Shown here in pieces: positions 5,052 to 17,647 of a DNA stretch of 64,000 nt; the first letter of the stretch is position 1; every line of letters starts with the position of its first letter. Origin of the DNA: Desulfatiglans anilini DSM 4660 (lineage in GTDB: Bacteria > Desulfobacterota > DSM-4660 > Desulfatiglandales > Desulfatiglandaceae). Position numbers and translations under genes: made by a program. The DNA is taken from assembly GCF_000422285.1 (NCBI RefSeq), contig NZ_AULM01000021.1, positions 1-64,000 of the forward strand. Direction: 5' to 3'. Under the pieces are notes generated by a model that was not told where the DNA came from, searched no databases, and saw nothing but the letters and a program-made list of their open reading frames with translations.

Positions 5052-7631
5052 ATGAGGCTTCGCATCGCTGCAGGCGTGTTCTTGGTGCTTCTTTTTCCCT
5101 TCTTTGCGGGAGCGGAGGTGTTCAAAGGTATGTATGGCGTCTCACCGCGGGCGGGGGAGGATTTGAACAGCTATGCATTGCAGCTGAAGGCTACTGGATT
5201 GAAGGCGGTTTTCGTCCCGCCGGACAAGGCCGTCGTTGCGGCCTTCAAGAAACGTGGATTCGAGGTGTATGTCAGCGTCAATGCATTTGGAGGCAGCGAG
5301 GCCTGGGAACGATACCCTGATTCAATGCCGGTCCAGGCAGACGGGCGGCTTATCGGGGCCTCGGAACAGGGAAAGGCCCCGGGAGGGGTTTGTCCAAGCC
5401 ATCGAGGGTGGCGTCAGGATCGGCTGAAAGCGATCCAAGAAATCGTGGAGGGGTTCAGAGGAGAGGATGCGATCGATGGCATTTGGCTAGATTTTCTCCG
5501 ATATCCGGGGGTTTGGGAGGCGGAAGACCCTCGAATACCGGATACCTGCTATTGTCCGAGGTGCCTCCGTCTCTTTCGGCAGCAGACGGGGATCGCCCTC
5601 CCGGCGGATCTCGACGCGGTTGCGGCCGCCGATTGGATCGACGAGCACTGTCCCTATGAATGGATGAAGTGGAAAAAGCGGCAGATCACCTCCTTTGCAG
5701 AGGAGGTCCGCGGCATCCTGGAAAGGGCCGATGCGCAAGACACCGTGAAATTAGGCGTCTTTCTGATTCCCTGGACCAAGGGGGAATATGGGAACGCCGT
5801 CTCGTACATTCTGGCCCAGGACGCCGGGGAACTCTCGGCCATCGCCGATATCGTCTCCCCCATGCTCTATCATCGGATCTCCGGCCGGCCCGTGTCCTGG
5901 GTGGGAGAGGCGACGGACTATTTCCGGGAGGCCGCAGGTTGCTCCGTGTGGCCCATTGTCCAGGCGGGGGGCTGCGATCCCCGAGAGTTCAGTTCGGTCC
6001 TCGATACGGCGACTCGGGAGGGCGGCGCGGAAGCGGTCCTCGTCTTCGCGCTTCAGGACATGACGTCCGGGCTGTGGGAGGCTCTCGGCTCTTTTCAGGG
6101 GGCCGCCAACCTGATCACGAACCCCGGGTTCGGGATGGCTTCGGATGGGAGCGGACCCGTCGAGTGGCGGCGCGGCGCGCCGGCCGGAGAAACCCGTTCG
6201 AAGAGCAGCCTTGCGGTATCGCCTGCGGACCGGATCGACGTCACAGGCTGGGAGCCCCTTGCGCGCCATCGCTCCCTGTGTTTGGGCATTTCTGCCGGCA
6301 CCGACCGGGGGGGTGTGTGGTCGAGCCCCCTTCCGAGCTGTACCCCCGGGGAGACGTTTCTGTTCGAGTCGCTTCTCTACCGCCATAGCATGGAGAACGG
6401 CGTGTACCCCCGGTTCACGTTTTGGGGCGAGGAGCATCTCGTAAACGTCCATATGCAGGTAAGGCGTTTTCAACCCGTCAGGCTGCACGTCACCTGCCCG
6501 GAAGAGCCGGCATCGGATCTCTTCGAGTTCGTGAACCACCATCCCGGGCATACCTTCTGGATGAGCGAACCGCGCCTGGTTCGGATGGCGGATCTCAGAG
6601 ATGAAAATGCGCCGAAGCCGGCCGCCTCCTTTTTTGAGGAGGGTTTCTACCCGATCGGCGTCTACGGCGCCGAACCCGATGCGCTGGAGACCGTGAAGGC
6701 AGCCGGCTTCAACACGGTCATCACGGACGGCAGCAAAGAGACGATTGAAAAATGCCACGAACTGGGCTTGAAGTATGTGGTATCGGTTCCCAAGGATCCG
6801 GACCGCCTGACGCCGTTCCTGGACGAGTTGGCGAAGACCGTGCGCAGCGATGATTTGGCCTTTTATGTGAATGACGAACCTGGCATCCACGCGTTTCCTC
6901 GCGGCCGGGCACAGGACATCCAGCGTTTGATCAAAGCGAGGTTCCCGGATGCGGCTACCTGCATGGCGGTGGTCAGGCCCCAGGTTTGCCGCGATTATCT
7001 GGATGCCGCCGACTTCTTTCTCCTCGACCAGTATCCCGTTCCCCACATGCCCATGACCTGGCTTTCGGATTCCATGGACCGGGCGGCACGGGATGTCGGG
7101 CGGAGCCGTATGGCGGCGGTCGTCCAGGCCTTTGGCGGCAGGAAGTGGTCCGGTTGGGGATGGCCGCGTATGCCCCAATGGCATGAGATGGACTGCCTGG
7201 CCTTTCTTTCCGTGGTTCACGGGGCCAGGGGGGTCTTCTTTTTCTCGTTCTCCGAGGCCGGTGCGACGCAGGAGGGCGTAGAATCCCTGAAAAAGGTGAC
7301 CGACAGGCTGCACCTTCTCCAGCCGTGGCTCAGCGTGGAGAACCTTCCCGATGCACCCGAGGTGAGCATGGTGTCCTCGTACCGCGTAGACCCCGGGGGG
7401 CGGCCCGCCATCCGGTGCTGCCTGCGCAGGACGGGGCAGGAGTGCCTGGTGATCGCCGTCAACACGATCGGCACCTTTGTCGAGGGGATGATCGCCGTCG
7501 AAGGCCCTCGGCCGACGCTCTACAGGGAGGTTTTTTCGGGCGAGGATCATGCCGCGCAGGAGGGAAGGCTCCGTGCGCGGCTCGGGCCCTACGAGGTCAA
7601 AGCCTTTTCCTTCGAATCCGGCACGAGTTGA
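5052..7631 (+). CDS. Secreted protein with two glycosidase-like TIM barrels
   Basis: A signal peptide (residues 1-21, ending GAEV) is followed by two separate barrel-like regions. Residues 25-330 resemble the GHL10/DUF4015-type putative glycosidases (DGIWLDFLRYPG, then a CYCPRCLRLF segment). Residues 525-760 form a second barrel with FYVNDEPG and FFLLDQYPV, recalling GH42-like enzymes. Between them (345-510) is a beta-rich region starting NLITNPGFG, like carbohydrate-binding modules. The final 100 residues are beta-rich too. The acidic residues in DFLRYP and NDEPG are candidate catalytic residues. Placed between the initiating transferase and the polymerase, it may trim or edit the polymer in the periplasm. 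Confidence 0.7.
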   Translation: MRLRIAAGVFLVLLFPFFAGAEVFKGMYGVSPRAGEDLNSYALQLKATGLKAVFVPPDKAVVAAFKKRGFEVYVSVNAFGGSEAWERYPDSMPVQADGRLIGASEQGKAPGGVCPSHRGWRQDRLKAIQEIVEGFRGEDAIDGIWLDFLRYPGVWEAEDPRIPDTCYCPRCLRLFRQQTGIALPADLDAVAAADWIDEHCPYEWMKWKKRQITSFAEEVRGILERADAQDTVKLGVFLIPWTKGEYGNAVSYILAQDAGELSAIADIVSPMLYHRISGRPVSWVGEATDYFREAAGCSVWPIVQAGGCDPREFSSVLDTATREGGAEAVLVFALQDMTSGLWEALGSFQGAANLITNPGFGMASDGSGPVEWRRGAPAGETRSKSSLAVSPADRIDVTGWEPLARHRSLCLGISAGTDRGGVWSSPLPSCTPGETFLFESLLYRHSMENGVYPRFTFWGEEHLVNVHMQVRRFQPVRLHVTCPEEPASDLFEFVNHHPGHTFWMSEPRLVRMADLRDENAPKPAASFFEEGFYPIGVYGAEPDALETVKAAGFNTVITDGSKETIEKCHELGLKYVVSVPKDPDRLTPFLDELAKTVRSDDLAFYVNDEPGIHAFPRGRAQDIQRLIKARFPDAATCMAVVRPQVCRDYLDAADFFLLDQYPVPHMPMTWLSDSMDRAARDVGRSRMAAVVQAFGGRKWSGWGWPRMPQWHEMDCLAFLSVVHGARGVFFFSFSEAGATQEGVESLKKVTDRLHLLQPWLSVENLPDAPEVSMVSSYRVDPGGRPAIRCCLRRTGQECLVIAVNTIGTFVEGMIAVEGPRPTLYREVFSGEDHAAQEGRLRARLGPYEVKAFSFESGTS

Positions 7632-7636
7632 AGAGC

Positions 7637-9844
7637 ATGGAGAGATCCGCCTTCGCTCTCTACATGGCCGTACTGGTGATCGGCCCGCTCCTCTTCGGGG
7701 CGATCCACACCTACGCCTACACCTTCATGAGCCTCGGGGTGCTCGCAGCGACGCTCCTCCTGATCGTGAAAAACGTCGGCCGAACCGCCGGGAGCGGAAG
7801 GTGGACCTTCCAATGCCCCCGAACGGGCCTCTACGTCTTCTTTTTCATGATGACCGCTTTCCTGGTCTTTCAGACCATCCCGTTGCCCGACTCGATGACG
7901 TCGATCTTGTCGCCGGAAGCGCACCAAATTGCGGAGGCTGCCATTCCGGCGCCTCTTGTCGTCGACGGAGCGGCCGGCTCAGGTTTCCGCTCGGCGCTGG
8001 CCCCGTATATTTACCCTGTCCGCATGTCCATCATGCGTTTCCTGGTCTACGGCCTCTTCTTCTTCGGATTCGCTCAGGTACTCAACTCACGAAGGCGGAT
8101 CGAACTTGCCGTTGTGCTGCTCCTCCTGACGGGCTCCTTCACCGCGCTCTATGGCATTCTTCAGACGTACTCCGCCGACCCCCATATCTGGTGGGTGAGA
8201 AGCGGCCCGAGCCGCCAGGCTGTGAACGGGACCTACATTAACCGAAACCATTTCGCCGGCTTCATGGAAATGGGCGTGCTCATGGCGGCCGCGTTTTCGG
8301 GGGCGATCGCCTTGGGCGTGAAAAAGCGGCTGCCCGTCCCCGGCATCGGCCTCAGAGGGCGTATCGGGGCATTCCTCTCCGGAGAGCAGGAGCGGAGCAA
8401 ACGGGTCCTGGTCCTCCTGGCCGGGATCGTTATGGGGCTCGGACTCATCTTTTCCGGATCGCGCGCAGGCATGGCATCAGCCGCAGCCGGACTCCTTTGC
8501 CTGGGGCTCTTCTTCGTCTTCAAGAGGAAGAACCGTCGGAAAGGGGCGCTTGTACTCTTTCTGTTTACCGCTACGGCCGGCTATGCCCTTTACATGGGTG
8601 TGGATTATCCCTTGAGCCGATTCGAGAACCTGGAACCTTCCTTCGAGGCGCGATACAGGTACGCCAGGACCACCTTCGAGCTGTTTCGGGATTACCCGAT
8701 TTTCGGTGTCGGCGTCGGCAATTTCCAGTACGCCTACCCGGTTTATCAGGCCCCGCAGGATCAGGGCATCCTGGTGGAGCATGCGCACAACGACTGGGTT
8801 CAGTTCCTGGCTGAGGCAGGCCTGGTGGGCTTCGGCATCATGCTCCTGGGGGCCGGCTGGATCGCCTTTGTGCTCATGCGGGCCTATCGGAGGCGGCAAG
8901 AGCCCTTTGCGGTCTCGCTCGGCGCAGTCCCTTTCGCTGTGATGGCGGCCATCGGGCTCCACTCGATCTACGATTTCAACCTGCACATGCCCGCCAACTT
9001 TCTGATCTTCACCGCCGTGCTCGCGATCGGGTTCAGCGCCCTGCACCTCGAGAGGGAGCCAATGGGGGCGCTCGGAGGCCTTCCATTCCGGGTGCTCCCG
9101 CTCCGCGGCAGCGGGGCGCTGGCGCTGTTGCTGGGCCTCGGGCTGGTGCTTTGGACGGGCCTTTGGAGCGTCAGACACTTTGTAGCGGAGGCGCACTGCA
9201 ACACCGTCCCGAACTCGACGCTGAACCGCGACATGGATCCCCCGGCGGGGGATATTCAAACCGCCATGGCCTGGGACCCCTGGAATGCGGGTTATCCTTA
9301 CAGGCTGGCGCTCAAATTCATGCTCCCGAACCCGGAGGCCGCCGAGGCGGCTGCGCCGGGGGCGCAGGTCTTGGGCGCGAGCGGCATCGCACCCCTTTTC
9401 TTGCAAGGGACGGCAGAGGCGATTATCCCCCCGCTCGAGCGCTCCCTCGCCCTGAACCCGTTTGAGGGCGAGCGCCACCTCCTCCTGGGCTGGGCCTATG
9501 CGAGCCTTTGGGACCGGCCGAATTACCGCGAGAGGTGGCTCCCGGCCGCCGATCTCGCTATGCAGCGAGCGGCCCTCTTCACCCAGGATAGCGAGGCCGG
9601 GGTGCATGCGGAGATGGGGAATTTCTGGGTGCTTCGTTCGAAGACGCTTCACCCGGCGGACCCCGAACATGCGGCCGCCCGGGCATCGGCTGCGGCCCAT
9701 TACTCGAGGGCGCTGGACATGTCTTCCGAAAAAGCCCGGAACTCCATGCGGGAGAAAATCAGCGCCTATGTCTGGCTCTTCTACCCCGATGAGCAGTTGG
9801 TCGGACAGCTTGTGAAAACTCCGGAGCCGGAAGTCATTCAGTGA
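7637..9844 (+). CDS. O-antigen ligase/Wzy-like polymerase with TPR-like C-terminal region
   Basis: Inner-membrane protein with about a dozen hydrophobic segments. The Wzy_C/O-antigen-ligase signature lies near residues 340-410: ARTTFELFRDYPIFGVGVGN, then VEHAHNDWVQFLAEAGLVG. The earlier NRNHFAGFMEMG segment is also common to the family. Residues after about 515 are soluble and helix-rich with alternating Ala/Leu, like tetratricopeptide repeats, which EPS polymerases of this class often carry. I chose the ATG at 7637, five bases after the previous stop; the frame is open upstream but only as a shadow of the preceding gene. It is one of two polymerase/ligase-type proteins in the window (the other at 37285). 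Confidence 0.85.
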   Translation: MERSAFALYMAVLVIGPLLFGAIHTYAYTFMSLGVLAATLLLIVKNVGRTAGSGRWTFQCPRTGLYVFFFMMTAFLVFQTIPLPDSMTSILSPEAHQIAEAAIPAPLVVDGAAGSGFRSALAPYIYPVRMSIMRFLVYGLFFFGFAQVLNSRRRIELAVVLLLLTGSFTALYGILQTYSADPHIWWVRSGPSRQAVNGTYINRNHFAGFMEMGVLMAAAFSGAIALGVKKRLPVPGIGLRGRIGAFLSGEQERSKRVLVLLAGIVMGLGLIFSGSRAGMASAAAGLLCLGLFFVFKRKNRRKGALVLFLFTATAGYALYMGVDYPLSRFENLEPSFEARYRYARTTFELFRDYPIFGVGVGNFQYAYPVYQAPQDQGILVEHAHNDWVQFLAEAGLVGFGIMLLGAGWIAFVLMRAYRRRQEPFAVSLGAVPFAVMAAIGLHSIYDFNLHMPANFLIFTAVLAIGFSALHLEREPMGALGGLPFRVLPLRGSGALALLLGLGLVLWTGLWSVRHFVAEAHCNTVPNSTLNRDMDPPAGDIQTAMAWDPWNAGYPYRLALKFMLPNPEAAEAAAPGAQVLGASGIAPLFLQGTAEAIIPPLERSLALNPFEGERHLLLGWAYASLWDRPNYRERWLPAADLAMQRAALFTQDSEAGVHAEMGNFWVLRSKTLHPADPEHAAARASAAAHYSRALDMSSEKARNSMREKISAYVWLFYPDEQLVGQLVKTPEPEVIQ

Positions 9845-10074: not shown

Positions 10075-10719
10075 ATGAAACTGGTCAAGTCTTTTCTGGC
10101 GATGATTCTGATGGTTCTGGTCTTTCCAGGACTGTCCTTTGGCGCTATGGTGTTCGAACTGGACCACCCCGGCACCGCTTACGTTGGGGACACGTTCGAT
10201 TTGACGGTGAAGATCGTCGGCACGGATTCGAATACCGATCCGCTGACGATTTGTGGATACGAGACCCTTCTGGGCTTCGACCCGGAGGCCCTGGAGTTGA
10301 CGGCCTACCAGGGCGAGCCATTTTTCCCCAGCGGCCTTCTGGGCCCTCAAGTTTATACGCCCACTAGCGTTCCGCCGTCTTCGCCGGGCACCTTCGGGTC
10401 CATGGATATCACGCTGGATGACGCCCCGGGTTTTCCTTATGGGGGCGCTACGGCGACCTTCACCTTCAAGTGCCTCAAGGCGGGCGTGGCTACGTTTTCC
10501 TTGACGGGCACCAACCTCGTCACGGATTGTTTGTTGTTCGACAACACGGATATCACAAGCGTGACCAATCCCTCGATCACCGTGAACGAGAAGCCTGTGC
10601 TGCCGGCTGCTCAGTCCGTTCCCACCATCGGCGGATACGGTATGCTGTTGTTGATTTTCGGCATGGGCCTCGGCGCGCTGTGGGCGGTCAGGCGGAAGAC
10701 ATCCGCTCTGAAGCGTTGA
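10075..10719 (+). CDS. Secreted cohesin-like protein with IPTL-CTERM-type anchor
   Basis: Signal peptide at residues 1-23 (ending LSFGA). Residues 25-172 read as a cohesin-like beta-sandwich: VFELDHPGTAYVGDTFDLTV, then GYETLLGFDPEALEL, ATATFTFKCLKAGVATFSL, all in the order seen in cohesins. The C-terminus (182-207) has the tripartite layout of IPTL-CTERM sorting signals: VPTIGGYGM, a hydrophobic helix, then VRRK. Such tails hold exported proteins at the envelope, probably for processing by a dedicated enzyme; none is visible in the window. The next two genes encode dockerin proteins, the natural partners of cohesins. The start is set by GGGAGGGAGAGGG upstream; the frame opens at 10015 but residues before the Met at 10075 are not signal-like. 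Confidence 0.8.
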   Translation: MKLVKSFLAMILMVLVFPGLSFGAMVFELDHPGTAYVGDTFDLTVKIVGTDSNTDPLTICGYETLLGFDPEALELTAYQGEPFFPSGLLGPQVYTPTSVPPSSPGTFGSMDITLDDAPGFPYGGATATFTFKCLKAGVATFSLTGTNLVTDCLLFDNTDITSVTNPSITVNEKPVLPAAQSVPTIGGYGMLLLIFGMGLGALWAVRRKTSALKR

Positions 10720-10835
10720 TTAGCAAGGCATTTCCCCCCGCTGGTTCTGCTCGTTCCACCAGGGCGGGGGCGTTTGAGCGCATGAAAAGGACAACCCAGG
10801 TTTAGAACCTAACACGTTTCGAGAGGAGTCAGACG

Positions 10836-11153
10836 ATGATCAGGATATCCGGCGTTGCATCGCTTCTTATGATTATGCTTGCGATGGTTTTTGCGGTTTC
10901 GCTTCCTGCCCACGCAGGGGAGCCTGTTGAGAAGGCGGCTTCCATTCAAACGTTCGAGGATTGTGCGTCTTACAACACCGATTTGAATGGCGACGGTGCC
11001 ATCGATGTGGCGGATCTGCTTGCCGTCAAGAAGTGCATCCAGGAAGGCTGCAGCGATTCTGCCTACGACGTGGACGGGGACGGGGCGGTGAACGAGGCCG
11101 ATGCGGATATCGTCCTCAAGTGCATAGAGCTTCGCCGGACGCAGAGGCAATGA
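10836..11153 (+). CDS. Small secreted dockerin type I protein (first of two)
   Basis: A 105-residue protein made of a signal peptide (1-27, ending PAHA) and little else but one dockerin. The two calcium-binding F-hand-like loops are complete: DLNGDGAIDVAD (49-60) and DVDGDGAVNEAD (78-89), each followed by a helix (LLAVKKCI and ADIVLKCI). Cysteines at 43, 67, 72 and 96 could form disulfides. There is no catalytic domain, unlike cellulosomal dockerins. GAGAGGAGT precedes the ATG by seven to ten bases. Its likely partner is the cohesin-like protein encoded just upstream, or a cohesin elsewhere in the genome. Confidence 0.85.
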   Translation: MIRISGVASLLMIMLAMVFAVSLPAHAGEPVEKAASIQTFEDCASYNTDLNGDGAIDVADLLAVKKCIQEGCSDSAYDVDGDGAVNEADADIVLKCIELRRTQRQ

Positions 11154-11193
11154 TGCACCGAACAGCCTTAAATTCTGGTAAGGGACGAGGATT

Positions 11194-11529
11194 ATGAAGA
11201 AGCTACGCGCAGCAGGTAAGAGGATGGTTCAGATGGTGTTTTCCATCGCACTAGTGTGGGGTGCGCTTGCCGCGCCGTCATTTGCCTTGGTGGCCCCCGG
11301 ACCGAGCGATATCACGAACTGCGATGATTGTCAGAACCTCGTGAATGTCGATGTGGACAGCGATGGGCGCGTTACGACGGCAGATCTTCTCATCGTTTAC
11401 AGCAACATTCAGAAGAAGATCTACACGGCTGCGAGCGACGTAAACAGTGACGGCCTCGTCAACATGGACGATTTCACCATCGTCAAACGCTGTCTCGGGT
11501 GCACGGTGAGCGCGAGCCCGTTCAATTGA
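11194..11529 (+). CDS. Small secreted dockerin type I protein (second of two)
   Basis: A 111-residue paralogue of the preceding gene: signal peptide (about 1-31, ending SFA), short linker, then one dockerin with loops DVDSDGRVTTAD (53-64) and DVNSDGLVNMDD (82-93) and the helices LLIVYSNI and FTIVKRCL. Four cysteines (43, 46, 100, 103) lie as CxxC pairs at the two ends of the domain, which may lock its termini together. It starts 40 bp after the first dockerin gene and has GGGACGAGG upstream. Sequence between the loops differs enough from the first copy to suggest a separate partner or orientation. Confidence 0.85.
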   Translation: MKKLRAAGKRMVQMVFSIALVWGALAAPSFALVAPGPSDITNCDDCQNLVNVDVDSDGRVTTADLLIVYSNIQKKIYTAASDVNSDGLVNMDDFTIVKRCLGCTVSASPFN

Positions 11530-11729: not shown

Positions 11730-13196
11730 TTGAGACCGAGTGATATGTTGTATTATCGGAAAAGCCCCTGCACGTGCGTGTCCGCACGGATGCCCGGGAT
11801 CCTGTGCCTCTTTGCTCCAGGCAGTGGAGGAGCGGCTCACGGAGCGAAGAGGCGCGGCCGCACTCGGTCAGGGTGTGACGTGTCGGGGCGGCGGGCCGTC
11901 GCTTCGGCGGTGTTGTGCCCCCTGCTCATGGTACTCCTGATAGGCACTGTGTGGCTGGGCCGGGCCCAGGGCGCCGTGTGGAGTCAGGCGGCAAGGACTG
12001 CTGAAGGGTATATGCAGGGCGACACCGGCAATCTCAGACTGGGGAAGTGGCGCGTCCTGCCCAGCCTGGCGCTGGAGGGTGTTTATGACAGCAACATTTT
12101 CCTCAGCAACGGGGAGAGCGTGCAACCGCTCGACCCTTCGAGGCGCACCCGCGACCCCAAGGTGTCGGACTATATCTTCCACGTTGCGCCGGCGCTCGAA
12201 CTCGCCTATGACATGGGGGTGCGCGGGGGAATCAAATTCGGTTACCAAGCGGATTTTGCGTTTTATCGCAGGCGGAGCGACCAGGACTGGCAGCGGCAAA
12301 GCGGCTCCTTCGGCTTCGACTATCGCGCGCCGGGAGGGTTGCTGCTGTTGATCGACGAACAGTTCACCGACGCCGATGACCCGTATGGAAACGACGTCCA
12401 GTACGGGCTGGGCGAGACGCGTAGCCGATGGACGAACGATCTGAAGGGAAGCGTCGGTTGGCGGTTCCCGAAGGATCTCAAGCTGCTTGCCCATTTCGGG
12501 CACAGCAAGAGCGAGTACGAAGTGGAGCGCGATCTCGACGCCGGCCAGAATTGGACGCTGATAGAGGCGGGGTTGGGCGTCGAGAAGAAGGTGATGTCAA
12601 GGACGTGGACCTTCCTGGAATTCCGCAACGGCTGGCAAGAGTATGATGATCACGGCCTCTCCGTCACCCCGGAGACCGATGCCGGCAACCAGCGGGCGAG
12701 GATCGATACGGGGCTGAAGTGGGAGGGCATCGGCCGTTTGTCGGGGGCCGTCAGCTTCGGCTATCAGTGGCTGCAATACGATAATGACCGGGATGCCCAG
12801 GGAATCCCCTACAGCGACACCGGCACGTGGGTCGGAGAGACCAGCGTCGGCTGGAAGGCGACGGCCAGGACCCTACTCGGTTTTAATTTTTCGCGAAACG
12901 AATCCCCCAGCTCCGGTGCTGGCGCGGACACCATGGAGACCACCTCGGCCGGGGTCACCCTTTCGCAGGAACTCCCTTATAAATTTCGCGGCATGGCCGG
13001 GTTTTCCTATGGTCTTTCCGACTACCAGTCGGGCCGCAAGGACCATGACTATTACGCGAACGTGGGCCTTACCTATCAGATCCGCGCCTGGCTCGATGCG
13101 GGCATCGGGTACCGCTATCTCCGAAAGGACTCCAGCGATGGGGCGGAATCGTTCACCGGGAACCAGTTCAGCGTTATGTTAGGCGCGCGGTATTGA
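11730..13196 (+). CDS. Outer-membrane beta-barrel protein of the EPS export system
   Basis: After an N-terminal export region, from about residue 85 the protein is a series of alternating amphipathic strands with aromatic girdles (LALEGVYDSNIFLSNG, GIKFGYQADFAFYRRR, LDAGIGYRYLRKDSSDG) and ends in QFSVMLGARY, a good outer-membrane C-terminal strand. This matches the BBP2-like barrels that accompany EPS genes. The start is uncertain: the ATG at 11730 gives a long Arg/Cys-rich leader, while a GTG at 11880 gives VSGRRAVASAVLCPLL, a better signal peptide cleaved after RAQG. Barrel genes of this type precede Wza/Wzc genes and may help the polymer through the outer membrane. Confidence 0.8.
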   Translation: MRPSDMLYYRKSPCTCVSARMPGILCLFAPGSGGAAHGAKRRGRTRSGCDVSGRRAVASAVLCPLLMVLLIGTVWLGRAQGAVWSQAARTAEGYMQGDTGNLRLGKWRVLPSLALEGVYDSNIFLSNGESVQPLDPSRRTRDPKVSDYIFHVAPALELAYDMGVRGGIKFGYQADFAFYRRRSDQDWQRQSGSFGFDYRAPGGLLLLIDEQFTDADDPYGNDVQYGLGETRSRWTNDLKGSVGWRFPKDLKLLAHFGHSKSEYEVERDLDAGQNWTLIEAGLGVEKKVMSRTWTFLEFRNGWQEYDDHGLSVTPETDAGNQRARIDTGLKWEGIGRLSGAVSFGYQWLQYDNDRDAQGIPYSDTGTWVGETSVGWKATARTLLGFNFSRNESPSSGAGADTMETTSAGVTLSQELPYKFRGMAGFSYGLSDYQSGRKDHDYYANVGLTYQIRAWLDAGIGYRYLRKDSSDGAESFTGNQFSVMLGARY

Positions 13197-13357: not shown

Positions 13358-14476
13358 ATGATGTTGCCGCCGAAGATTTTGCCAGGCGCCGCCGAAGGGC
13401 GTCGCCGTCACCGATTGGTTTGGGCCCTGTCGAAGATGCGTGCTGGGGCGGTGCTGCTGTTGCTCCTCGCTTTTTGCGCCCCGGGGTGTGCGGTCAACGA
13501 TGAGGTAGTCCGCGTCACCCATGTGCAAAGCGGGGAGCTGAGCGGCCTCGGGCCGGAGAACGCAGCCAGGGTCGCCGAGATCAAGAAGGCCCGCGGCGGC
13601 CGGGAAATCAGTCCGCAGATCGGCGAGGTTCTCGGTGATGCCCCCCAGTTGAGCGTTGCGGAATATCGTTCACGCTTTCCCGAAGCCGAATGTGCGGAGT
13701 CCGATTACCAGGTCGGCGGGACCGATGTGCTCTCGGTGGTGGTCTATGACGAGCCCGACCTCTCCAAAGACGCGGTGCCCGTGAGCAGGGAAGGTTACAT
13801 CTCTTTTCCTCTTGTCGGGCGTGTCAAGGTTGCGGGTCTCACCCCGGTTGAAATCGAGCGGCTCATGGCCCATGAACTGGCAGCCAAGCAGTATCTTCTG
13901 GACGCGCATGTTTCGGTCATGGTCCGGGAGTACAACAGCAGGCACTTCATGGTCCTCGGGACGGTGAACGCCCCTGGCACCTACACCCTTCAGGCGGGGG
14001 AGCGCGTCCTGAACGCCCTTTCCAAGGTGGGCGGGTTCGACCGGCAGCGGGCTGGGAGCCATGCCCTCCTTATCCGGACGCTCGAATCGGGGACGGAAAC
14101 GGAGAACCGAGTCATCGTCAAGATCGACCTCGACAGCCTTCTGAAGAGGGGCGACCAGGCGTCCAACCTGTATCTGCGCGACGGGGACATGCTGTTCGTT
14201 CCACCCGTATCGCGCTATTACATTATCGGGCAGGTGCAAACCCCCGGCTCCTATGATATGCCGAACGACGAAGTCAGCCTCGTGGAGGCCATCGGGGCCG
14301 CCGGCGGGTTCACGCCGATTGCGGCCAGGAACAAGACGCGCATCATCCGGGTGGAGGAGGGCGTGGAAAAGATCATCGTGATCAACGTGGATGCCATCAC
14401 CCGCGAAGGTAGAAAGGTGAGCGACATCGCGCTCAAACCGGACGACATCGTCGTGGTCCCGGAGAGCTTTTTCTGA
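13358..14476 (+). CDS. Polysaccharide export lipoprotein (Wza-like)
   Basis: Outer-membrane channel-forming polysaccharide exporter. A lipobox is visible (LLAFCAPGC), implying lipidation on that Cys. The PES domain follows with YQVGGTDVLSVVVYDEPDLS, then two SLBB domains with VLGTVNAPGTYTL and IIGQVQTPGSYDMP. The best start may be the ATG at 13436 (MRAGAVLLLLLAFC), which puts the lipobox at a normal distance; the upstream ATG at 13358 adds 26 basic residues. The gene lies 35 bp before the Wzc-like kinase, its usual partner across the periplasm. Confidence 0.9.
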   Translation: MMLPPKILPGAAEGRRRHRLVWALSKMRAGAVLLLLLAFCAPGCAVNDEVVRVTHVQSGELSGLGPENAARVAEIKKARGGREISPQIGEVLGDAPQLSVAEYRSRFPEAECAESDYQVGGTDVLSVVVYDEPDLSKDAVPVSREGYISFPLVGRVKVAGLTPVEIERLMAHELAAKQYLLDAHVSVMVREYNSRHFMVLGTVNAPGTYTLQAGERVLNALSKVGGFDRQRAGSHALLIRTLESGTETENRVIVKIDLDSLLKRGDQASNLYLRDGDMLFVPPVSRYYIIGQVQTPGSYDMPNDEVSLVEAIGAAGGFTPIAARNKTRIIRVEEGVEKIIVINVDAITREGRKVSDIALKPDDIVVVPESFF

Positions 14477-14511: not shown

Positions 14512-16791
14512 ATGAACGAACCCCTGATAGATTCCCCGGAAAGGGAAAAACCGGTCGACCTGCGGCGCTACCTGCAGGTGGTCCTCAAACGGCGCTGGGT
14601 CATCCTGGCGGTCTTCGCGGTCATCCTGATCGCCGTCGCTTTGAAGACCTACACCGCAACACCGGTTTACCGGGCTACCACCCGGCTCATCATCGAAAAG
14701 AGCCTCTCGGCGAGTTCCGTGATGCCGCAAAACGGTATGTTCTACGAGATCTGGGACCCGCAGTTCTACAACACGCAGCACAAGATCATCCAGAGCCGCG
14801 CGGTGGCGGCCTCGGTCATCGACCGGTTGAATCTGGAACATTCGGAGGAGTTTTTCCCCAAGCCTAAGGATGACCCCGTTTCAAGGGTGAAGCGATTCAT
14901 CGCGGACCAAGTTCAAGGCGTCAAGGCGGCGGCGGCCGCTCTTTTTCGGACGGGCGACAGACAGGCCGTTCTGCAGCCTGACCAAGCCGATTCCAAAGGG
15001 CCGGATTCGGGGCTGATCTCTGCGGTCATGGATCGGATCACCGTCACGCCCGTCCGGGATACCCGTCTGGTGGACGTGAGCTTCGACGCGAAGGACCCGG
15101 TGCTCGCGGCGATGATCGCCAATGCGGTGGCCCAGGCCTATATCGAAGGTAATTTGGAGACACGGCTTGCCAGTGTCAAGGATGCGGTGGAGTGGCTCAG
15201 CGACCGGATCGAAGATGAGCGCAGAAAGGTCAACGAGGCGGAGTACGCGCTGCTCCAGTATAAGGAGCGGAACAAGATCATTACGGACTTCTCCAGCGAC
15301 ACCGAACAGGTAACTGCGCAGAAGCTTGCGCAGTTGAACGCCCAGGTGGTCGATGCTGAATCCGCGCGGGTCGAGGCCGAAACCCTTCTCAATCAGGCCC
15401 TTGCGCTCAGGGGGTCTCCCGAACTGATCGGCTCGATCCCGGATGTCTTGAGCAATTCGCTGATCTCGGAGATCAAGAGCATGGAGGTGGACATCTACAA
15501 GCAGATGTCCGAACTCTCCAAGAAGTACGGCAAAAACCACCCCAGGATGGTCGCCCTCGATTCGGAGTTGAAGGAGCTGAATGCGAGGAAGGCCAAGGAG
15601 GTGGAGCGTGTCGTCAACTCGCTCAGGAACCGCTACATGGTCGCCCAGGCGAAGGAAGAGTCCCTCAAGAGGGCGTTTGAGGAGCAGAAGGAGCAGGCCC
15701 TCCAACTGAACGAAAAGGCCATCCGTTACAGCCTGTTGAACCGCGAGGTCGAAAGCGCCCGGGAGATGTATGACCTCCTGGTCAAGCGGTTCAAAGAGGC
15801 CACCGTCGCCGAGGACATGAAGGCGGACAACGTCCGGGTGATCGACAGGGCCGAGGTGCCCGCGAGCCCGGTCAGCCCGGACAAGCGCCGAAACCTCCTG
15901 CTCGCCCTCGCCGTCGGGCTCGCCCTCGGGGTCGGAGCCGCGTTTCTCCTCGAATACCTCGACAATACCATCAAGCTTCCCGAGGAACTCAAGGACCATC
16001 TGGACGTCGCGTACCTGGGGCCGGTGCCCGCCTTTCAGCCGGAGGGGGATGGCGTCTCTGCCGGCGGAGATCTCGCTTGTGTCCATTCGCCCAGGTCCGG
16101 TGCCAGTGAGGCCTATCGGGGCATCCGCACGAACCTGCTCTTTTCCTCGGCCGGATCCGCCCCGCAGGTCATCCTTATCACGAGCGCCACGCCCCAGGAC
16201 GGCAAGACGGTCACCACCGCCAATCTGGGGGTGACCATGGCGCAGGCGGGGAGCAGGACGGTCATCATCGACTGCGACCTCCGAAAGCCCAAACTGCACA
16301 AGGTCTTCGGCGTCAAATCCGATTGCGGCCTGACGAATCTCCTGGTGGGCGCGAAAGGCAGCGAACAGGCGATCCTCGCCACCGAAGTCCCGGGGCTGGA
16401 CCTCATCCCATCCGGTCCGATCCCCCCCAACCCCTCCGAGATGCTCGGCTCCTCGCAGATGGCCGATCTCCTTACCACCCTCAGAAGCCGCTATGAGCGC
16501 ATCCTGCTCGACAGCCCGCCTGTCACCGCGGTGACCGACGCCACGGTCCTGGCCAGTGCAGTCGACGGGGTCGTCCTCGTAATCAGGGCCGGCTCCACGG
16601 TGCGGGCCGCCGCGGCCGGCGCCGTGGACCAGATCCGGGCGGTTGGCGGGCATATCCTCGGGGGCCTGCTGAATGCGGTCGATGCCGACGGGGGCAAGTA
16701 TTACTATCAGCACTACTATTATCACTATTACGGGGATGATGGTGAGAAGAAGAAAAAGAGCCGCAGGAAGCGCAGAACAGCCGGTGCCTGA
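14512..16791 (+). CDS. Wzc-like chain-length determinant/tyrosine autokinase
   Basis: Inner-membrane co-polymerase that controls chain length and links polymerase to export. An N-terminal Wzz domain with a first membrane segment (about 30-50), a long periplasmic coiled coil, a second segment near 465-485, then a cytoplasmic BY-kinase domain. Kinase motifs: Walker A region ATPQDGKTVTTANLG (about 560), Walker A' VIIDCDLRKPKLHKVFG, Walker B ERILLDSPPVTAVTDA. The tail carries a dense tyrosine cluster (KYYYQHYYYHYYGDDG), the usual autophosphorylation site, followed by a Lys/Arg-rich end. Length 759 aa is normal for the fused form. The cognate phosphatase gene follows. Confidence 0.93.
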   Translation: MNEPLIDSPEREKPVDLRRYLQVVLKRRWVILAVFAVILIAVALKTYTATPVYRATTRLIIEKSLSASSVMPQNGMFYEIWDPQFYNTQHKIIQSRAVAASVIDRLNLEHSEEFFPKPKDDPVSRVKRFIADQVQGVKAAAAALFRTGDRQAVLQPDQADSKGPDSGLISAVMDRITVTPVRDTRLVDVSFDAKDPVLAAMIANAVAQAYIEGNLETRLASVKDAVEWLSDRIEDERRKVNEAEYALLQYKERNKIITDFSSDTEQVTAQKLAQLNAQVVDAESARVEAETLLNQALALRGSPELIGSIPDVLSNSLISEIKSMEVDIYKQMSELSKKYGKNHPRMVALDSELKELNARKAKEVERVVNSLRNRYMVAQAKEESLKRAFEEQKEQALQLNEKAIRYSLLNREVESAREMYDLLVKRFKEATVAEDMKADNVRVIDRAEVPASPVSPDKRRNLLLALAVGLALGVGAAFLLEYLDNTIKLPEELKDHLDVAYLGPVPAFQPEGDGVSAGGDLACVHSPRSGASEAYRGIRTNLLFSSAGSAPQVILITSATPQDGKTVTTANLGVTMAQAGSRTVIIDCDLRKPKLHKVFGVKSDCGLTNLLVGAKGSEQAILATEVPGLDLIPSGPIPPNPSEMLGSSQMADLLTTLRSRYERILLDSPPVTAVTDATVLASAVDGVVLVIRAGSTVRAAAAGAVDQIRAVGGHILGGLLNAVDADGGKYYYQHYYYHYYGDDGEKKKKSRRKRRTAGA

Positions 16792-16867: not shown

Positions 16868-17647
16868 ATGATCGATATCCATTGCCATTTCCTGCCCGGC
16901 ATCGACGACGGGCCGAGTTCGCTCTCCGAAGCCCTGGCGATGGCCAGGCAGGCGGTGGGCGACGGCATACACGCCATCGTCGCCACCCCGCATACCCTCA
17001 ACGGGGTTTATACGAACGATCGGGCAAGCGTCCTATCGGCCGTGGCTGAAATGCAATCCTTTCTCTCCGGACAGAAGATCGATCTCAAGCTCTACGCCGG
17101 CGGGGATACCCATCTGACGGATCATATGGCCGAGCGTGTCCGTGCGGGTGAGATCTGCACAATCGCCGACCGGTCGAGACACCTCCTCCTGGAGATGCCG
17201 AGGCACGTGCTCCCGCGGGCTGTCCAGACCGAGGTCTACGCCCTGAGGTTGAACGGCCTCACCCCCATCATCACCCATCCCGAAAGAAACGACACGATCC
17301 AGCGCGACCCCGGTCTCCTTCTGGACCTGATCCGCATGGGCGCTCTCTCCCAAATCACCGCTATGAGCCTGACCGGGGGATTCGGGAGACTTGTCCGCAG
17401 CGTGGCGAAGAAACTGGTCGCCCAGCGCCTCGTGCACCTGATTGCCACCGACGCCCATTCGCCGGACCACCGGCCTGTGTCATTATCCGCAGCCGTCCAC
17501 GTCGCTGCGGAAATCCTGGGCAGCACAGACGAGGCCGAGAGAATGGTGACAGCCGTGCCCAGTGCCATACTGGCCGGCGAATCCCCGGAAATCCCCGAAC
17601 CCGCCCTTCGACCCGGAGGACGGGTTGAACGTGCAGCGAGAGTGTGA
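16868..17647 (+). CDS. PHP-type tyrosine-protein phosphatase (CpsB/CapC/YwqE family)
   Basis: Manganese-type phosphatase predicted to remove phosphate from the tyrosine tail of the neighbouring Wzc-like kinase. Metal-ligand motifs of the PHP fold are seen: [14 protein letters not shown] at the start, [19 protein letters not shown] and [11 protein letters not shown] near the end. The third motif reads GGDTHLTD where characterised members usually have a Glu, a conservative change that might alter metal binding. Length 259 aa is typical. The stop overlaps a possible GTG start of the aminotransferase gene, so the two are probably co-translated. Confidence 0.88.

Follow-up and report, generated by a model that had tools for sequence, protein, structure and literature searches.

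A tailed cohesin and two free dockerins in an exopolysaccharide locus of Desulfatiglans anilini

Cohesin and dockerin modules are common outside cellulosomes, where their function is described as unknown (PMC5244752). In Desulfatiglans anilini DSM 4660, three consecutive genes (P0001, P0002 and P0003) encode a tailed cohesin protein and two small dockerin proteins inside an exopolysaccharide (EPS) locus, which raises the question of whether these proteins act on one another and what they may do there. The window, that is, the whole stretch of 64,000 nucleotides that was analysed, holds the following features at and around the trio.

7676..9844, + strand: Wzy-type polymerase / O-antigen ligase domain protein, flank (PF04932, 82.6 bits)
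10075..10719, + strand: P0001, 214 aa; signal peptide, one cohesin domain and an IPTL-CTERM-like exosortase sorting tail (profiles, AlphaFold model)
10144..10590, + strand: cohesin domain of P0001, residues 24-172 (Pfam PF00963 over 34-158; AF2 model)
10618..10716, + strand: C-terminal sorting tail of P0001; VPTIGGYG, TM helix and basic residues RRK (TIGR04174, model, other tails of the genome)
10836..11153, + strand: P0002; signal peptide and one dockerin type I domain, 4 Cys (PF00404, 42.9 bits)
11194..11529, + strand: P0003; signal peptide and one dockerin type I domain, CxxC at both ends (PF00404, 39.8 bits)
11790..13196, + strand: BBP2 / PEP-CTERM-associated EPS outer-membrane porin, flank (PF10082, 66 bits; TIGR03016, 65.8 bits, below cut-off)
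13358..14476, + strand: Wza-type polysaccharide export protein, flank (PF02563; EpsE and XrtA export models, E 2e-42, below cut-offs)
14512..16791, + strand: Wzc-type chain length determinant/tyrosine kinase, flank (TIGR01005, 368 bits; TIGR01007, 197 bits)
16868..17647, + strand: CpsB/CapC phosphatase, flank (PF19567, 174 bits)

A Shine-Dalgarno-like sequence precedes each of the three genes, and direct reading of their products reveals a Sec-type signal peptide at every N-terminus. The trio lies between wzy and the porin, wza and wzc genes, in a locus (WecA-like, Wzy_C, BBP2 porin, Poly_export, Wzz/GNVR-kinase and CpsB) where wzy, wza, wzc and an initiating transferase occur together, as is characteristic of Wzy-dependent EPS synthesis. 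Coordinates, signal peptides and EPS genes agree with a preliminary description of this DNA, which had placed three exported proteins without cellulase-like domains between the polymerase and the outer-membrane export genes; no such domain was found in any of the three.

No sigma-54 site of the kind seen at PEP-CTERM genes was found near the trio, the total for the window being no more than expected by chance; sigma-70 promoter and terminator matches also stayed at the chance level. The dockerin genes have a GC content of 0.55-0.56, compared with about 0.62 in the flanking genes, a signal too weak to claim an origin by horizontal transfer.

Domains and sorting tail of the three proteins

Against the Pfam Cohesin family (PF00963), whose gathering score is 24.1, P0001 reaches only 20.3 bits (E 6.6e-4), and a search of PDB sequences with it returned no cohesin. 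A profile derived from 47 segments with cohesin hits in the phylum raises the score to 27.1 bits (E 1.8e-5 at Z = 100,000). The sub-threshold Pfam score would fit a reading in which this domain is a generic beta-sandwich such as PEP-CTERM-type surface proteins would carry, pairs with no dockerin and has its neighbours by coincidence, but in fold comparison cohesins rank far ahead of other beta-sandwiches. In the AlphaFold model of P0001 (mean pLDDT 76; alignment of 40 sequences, cohesins among them), residues 24-172 form a beta-sandwich and residues 189-210 a TM helix. PDB cohesins rank first in Foldseek (E 1.5e-8), and all of the top 33 PDB matches, bar one adhesin domain, are cohesins or cohesin-like modules. 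Moreover, VIA-align against PDB cohesins gave a Z of 15.9 over residues 23-173, with an rmsd of 1.9 over 131 residues, and ranked type I cohesins (Z 15-16) ahead of types II and III. The model thus has the beta-sandwich (jelly-roll) fold of cohesins; because its alignment contained cohesins, which can favour that fold, this evidence is strong and not fully independent.

All three parts of a sorting tail, that is, motif, TM helix and basic end, are present at the C-terminus of P0001. Its scores of 13.0 bits for IPTL-CTERM (cut-off 20.8) and 15.1 for NCBIfam TIGR04174 (cut-off 20.5) are both sub-threshold, but VPTIGGYG...RRK fits the pattern of other tails in the genome (VPTISPWG, VPTLSQWG, VPTMTGYG and VPTMSHLG), which has up to 12 IPTL-type tails. 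The single exosortase of the genome is XrtH (TIGR04177, 91.3 bits for a cut-off of 86), encoded on a different contig from the trio. Motif comparison and the presence of XrtH support the view that the tail is an exosortase-type display signal.

Both small proteins score well above the Dockerin_1 cut-off (PF00404, 22.9 bits) and carry the duplicated loops of type I dockerins, each with two complete 12-residue calcium loops (DLNGDGAIDVAD and DVDGDGAVNEAD in P0002, DVDSDGRVTTAD and DVNSDGLVNMDD in P0003). They are paralogues (35% over 92 aa, BLASTP E 6e-12), with four cysteines each and without a cargo domain. The structural model of P0002 retrieved PDB dockerins first, with TMt up to 0.77 and a Foldseek E of only 0.2.

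The one cohesin found in the genome is followed, in the next two genes, by two strong dockerins, which supports a pairing. Our preferred reading, to which we give a probability of roughly 55%, is that P0001, sorted by XrtH, captures the dockerins of P0002 and P0003 through calcium and forms with them a surface or EPS coat module. P0001 would be exported by the Sec pathway and, through sorting by XrtH, reach the cell surface or the EPS layer; P0002 and P0003 would be exported as calcium-loaded dockerins, bind the P0001 cohesin and, once bound, join the coat. Being free of cargo, the two dockerins may serve as caps or competitors, may form bridges linked by disulfides, or may be matrix proteins that bind calcium.

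As regards the preliminary description, the best PDB matches of the predicted structure bear out its cohesin fold at residues 25-172 of P0001, and profile scores and loops agree with its two small proteins made of a signal peptide and one dockerin with both calcium loops. The sorting-type C-terminal anchor that it saw on P0001 matches the other IPTL-type tails of the genome, though below family cut-offs. It had also proposed the docking of a secreted glycosidase-like protein, encoded beside wzy at 5052-7631; this is unsupported, because that protein carries no Pfam dockerin or cohesin, and we rejected it as a dockerin client. The protein in question is exported, has 859 aa and belongs to neither a Pfam nor an NCBIfam family; in another locus (L210), a homologue (E 5e-31) likewise adjoins a wzy.

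The porin-adjacent slot in related genomes

No orthologue of P0001 was found in 85 genomes of the order or in the contigs of its own genome; therefore the trio and its position in the EPS locus are not conserved. Orthologues of the porin, present in 10 of the 85 genomes (that of D. anilini included), mark the same EPS locus in nine others, and those of Wza do so at 22 loci, almost all of them in MAGs named as Desulfobacterales, Desulfobacteraceae, Deltaproteobacteria or Syntrophus. We took the place next to the porin (the wzy-porin or porin-wza gap) as the slot and judged its contents in the loci that show this neighbourhood. In those loci the slot holds no cohesin or dockerin. Within the genus, the family and the order alike, the orthologous EPS loci have other secreted proteins there, including FecR-domain proteins with Thr-rich tails and, in a relative of the same genus, a helical Thr-rich protein. 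In Ca. Desulfatibia vada (L220:3-2888), two tandem proteins are encoded directly upstream of porin-wza-wzc, with N-terminal halves rich in Pro, Gly and Tyr and with C-terminal EF-hand loops; they are not dockerins.

Since contents differ among orthologous loci, the porin-adjacent slot is, judged from gene content, a variable site for a secreted accessory protein. A conserved order of cohesin-CTERM, dockerin and dockerin beside wza/wzc, as put forward in the preliminary description, is not what these loci show.

The tandem Pro-rich EF-hand proteins of Ca. Desulfatibia vada would suit a different account of P0002 and P0003, namely that they are calcium-binding proteins of the matrix whose binding partner is acidic EPS or the other of the two, not P0001, in a slot that favours calcium-binding secreted proteins; the four cysteines of each dockerin could form covalent links. 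We regard this account as improbable, given that the genome's only cohesin adjoins both genes and that cohesin-CTERM genes with dockerin neighbours recur in unrelated loci, as described below. Under our preferred reading, the other secreted accessory proteins found in the slot of relatives point to the trio as a lineage-specific matrix or coat module, which would be made together with the polysaccharide. We infer that the three genes are co-expressed and that their products have a role in the EPS, perhaps by crosslinking it.

Cohesin-CTERM genes and their dockerin neighbours

Among 395 genomes of the phylum, a cohesin was found in 41 and a dockerin in 54, with both in 21, when 5.6 would be expected (p 6e-10). 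Cohesin and dockerin lie less than 5 kb apart in nine of the 395, in several cases within one protein. Two genomes (G328 and G345) encode proteins made of a signal peptide (SP), a cohesin and a PEP-CTERM tail that adjoin a dockerin gene, that of G328 sharing 29% identity with P0001 over 203 aa, tail included. A cohesin-CTERM profile made from P0001 and these two proteins found further full-length members in the phylum. A dockerin lies within 6 kb of 12 of 16 SP-cohesin-CTERM genes, which come from other families of the phylum, whereas among 20 other CTERM genes it does so for only one (Fisher p 1.6e-5), in a comparison where the set of 16 leaves out the three profile seeds and the multi-cohesin G151 protein, and where the control windows reach up to 6 kb on each side, are in some cases cut by contig ends and come partly from genomes without dockerins. 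The four exceptions are the genes of G085 and G391, one G159 copy (11.5 kb away) and one gene at a contig end. In five genomes (G170, G225, G238, G350 and G364) the only dockerin found lies roughly 2 kb or less from the cohesin-CTERM gene. Additionally, an exosortase is present in 17 of 18 genomes checked, the exception being G328 (91% complete); for the checked genomes other than that of D. anilini with cohesin-CTERM genes or clusters, the count is 14 of 15.

Gene neighbourhoods thus support a conserved partnership of cohesin-CTERM and dockerin genes in the phylum. The conserved co-occurrence proposed in the preliminary description stands as far as the cohesin-CTERM gene beside a dockerin is concerned, and is not supported for the order beside wza/wzc; taken as a whole, that description is supported on the fold, the dockerins, the exosortase-type display and the partnership, and unsupported on the conserved EPS order and the glycosidase. 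With tails removed, P0001 matches the other cohesin-CTERM proteins at 15.6 bits, where 2000 shuffles gave 10.0 at best. On this score it appears to be a weak member of the group, so that the group argument rests on architecture more than on close descent. The genes of G085 and G391, which have no dockerin nearby, would be in line with the generic beta-sandwich described above, but the two co-location statistics (12/16 against 1/20 genes; 21 against 5.6 genomes) add to the fold matches in making that reading very hard to credit.

The domain scan of the dockerin neighbours revealed multicopper oxidase, cytochrome c7, sortilin-like and SBBP domains, among others, and no cellulase. Most of these neighbours are large, which would favour a different role for P0001, as the single surface socket of the cell for larger dockerin proteins, with the free dockerins as caps or competitors that set its occupancy and with an incidental position in the EPS locus. 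Besides P0002 and P0003, one more dockerin protein was found in the genome, on contig C28 (L092:5651-8953), which also bears a further IPTL-CTERM match. It has 1100 aa, with DUF7948, SBBP propeller repeats, DUF11 and a Cys-rich C-terminal dockerin, and is, under our preferred reading too, a plausible larger client of P0001. A cohesin-CTERM protein of G121 is paired with a DUF7948-SBBP protein that, like the one on C28, ends in a dockerin, and the G453 cluster described below has a subtilase with a dockerin. Nevertheless, the C28 gene is far from the trio, its dockerin scores weakly, at 21.7 bits in the protein scan, and two dedicated tandem dockerin genes beside the cohesin exceed what a cap would need; we hold this role to be unlikely.

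None of the approximately 40 cohesin/dockerin loci first taken from the phylum has EPS genes beside it. In G453 (L303:1-16443), a subtilase with a C-terminal dockerin is encoded directly upstream of wza in an XrtA-type EPS locus, and PEP-CTERM genes and a cohesin-dockerin gene follow about 2-4 kb beyond it, further upstream. Among the EPS models, TIGR03007 is over its cut-off there and TIGR03015, 03016, 03018 and 03027 are below theirs; the subtilase dockerin is visible only with the phylum dockerin profile and not with Pfam at E 0.001. The EPS link of cohesin and dockerin genes may therefore recur by convergence, with G453 as one independent case.

An exosortase-type cohesin beside a dockerin gene is a more interesting result than the single trio. 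We tentatively suggest, at somewhat less than even odds, that exosortase-bearing bacteria share a general, undescribed form of surface display, in which secreted proteins with a dockerin tag (oxidases, cytochromes, propellers and proteases) would plug, by way of calcium, into one sorted cohesin. In some lineages this cohesin would be built into an EPS operon with free dockerins, coupling protein and polysaccharide coats. In G374, multicopper oxidase and cytochrome c7 proteins with C-terminal dockerins adjoin cohesin-PEP-CTERM genes (L268:8115-10631 and L267:8340-10559), an arrangement that suggests surface-docked redox proteins.

Relation to known systems

The trio shares with type I cellulosomes (C. 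thermocellum, C. cellulolyticum and others) the type I cohesin fold and two-loop dockerins, but has one cohesin, no CBM, no adjoining dockerin enzymes, a Gram-negative sorting tail and an EPS locus; a multi-cohesin scaffoldin together with dockerin-bearing plant cell wall enzymes was not found in the genome. In Ca. Stygibacter (Cloacimonadota; PMC8542988), a Gram-negative cohesin protein likewise has a C-terminal sorting domain and there are secreted dockerin proteins, although in that case the scaffoldin is large and multi-cohesin, has CBMs and carries a type IX-like domain at its C-terminus, and enzymes bear the dockerins. Within the phylum, eleven genomes (G328, G345, G364, G225, G170, G374, G238, G350, G121, G159 and G378) resemble the trio in having an SP-cohesin-CTERM protein of ~190-220 aa beside a dockerin. 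They differ in their PEP-CTERM tails, in dockerins usually borne by larger proteins and in that EPS genes were not recognised alongside, the related G453 cluster being the exception.

Also from sulfate-reducer lineages are the non-cellulosomal cohesin/dockerin proteins of the syntrophic partners of ANME, proposed as biofilm adhesins with adjacent cohesin and dockerin domains in a work that also stresses EPS pathways (Murali et al. 2023, PMC10553843). Unlike here, that text makes no mention of exosortase, sortase or PEP-CTERM, and no single tailed cohesin, nor free dockerins within a wza/wzc locus, was seen described in it.

PEP-CTERM systems are associated with EPS production, and for most PEP-CTERM proteins the homology to proteins already known is slight (Haft et al. 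2006, PMC1569441). The PEP-CTERM/exosortase (EpsH) system of that work resembles the trio locus in the signal peptide, the tail with TM helix and basic end, the EPS link and the EpsE-, EpsL- and Wzc-like neighbours, the differences being the IPTL-type tail of the trio and the location of XrtH on another contig. Overexpression of a PEP-CTERM protein in floc formation lowered released polymers and raised bound ones (PMC9850573), a precedent for an EPS role of such proteins. Exosortase-tailed cohesins would give some PEP-CTERM proteins a job, tied to EPS in at least two loci.

A search of open-access literature found no paper that combines PEP-CTERM with either dockerin or cohesin and none with dockerin and IPTL-CTERM; dockerin, cohesin and exosortase met only in an ANME review that treats them apart. 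In the PEP-CTERM/exosortase context, the combination of a defined cohesin domain and dockerin neighbours is new, with the proviso that, since many subscription papers fall outside such a search, absence from it is not proof of novelty. The anchored cohesin beside a dockerin gene suggests an undescribed way to clip proteins onto Gram-negative surfaces, and the recurrent pair offers a testable partner and location, that is, a surface socket and a client encoded by the neighbouring gene.

Across the phylum, closely similar cohesin domains occur in another group of open frames of ~820-960 aa (L103, L106, L107, L109, L111, L114, L119 and L121), possibly secretin-like proteins. A family of small exported single-cohesin proteins without an obvious anchor (L022, L024, L036, L105, L110, L113 and L116) has frames of ~167-208 aa, most of them with a conserved MAGARGI(K/T)G motif.
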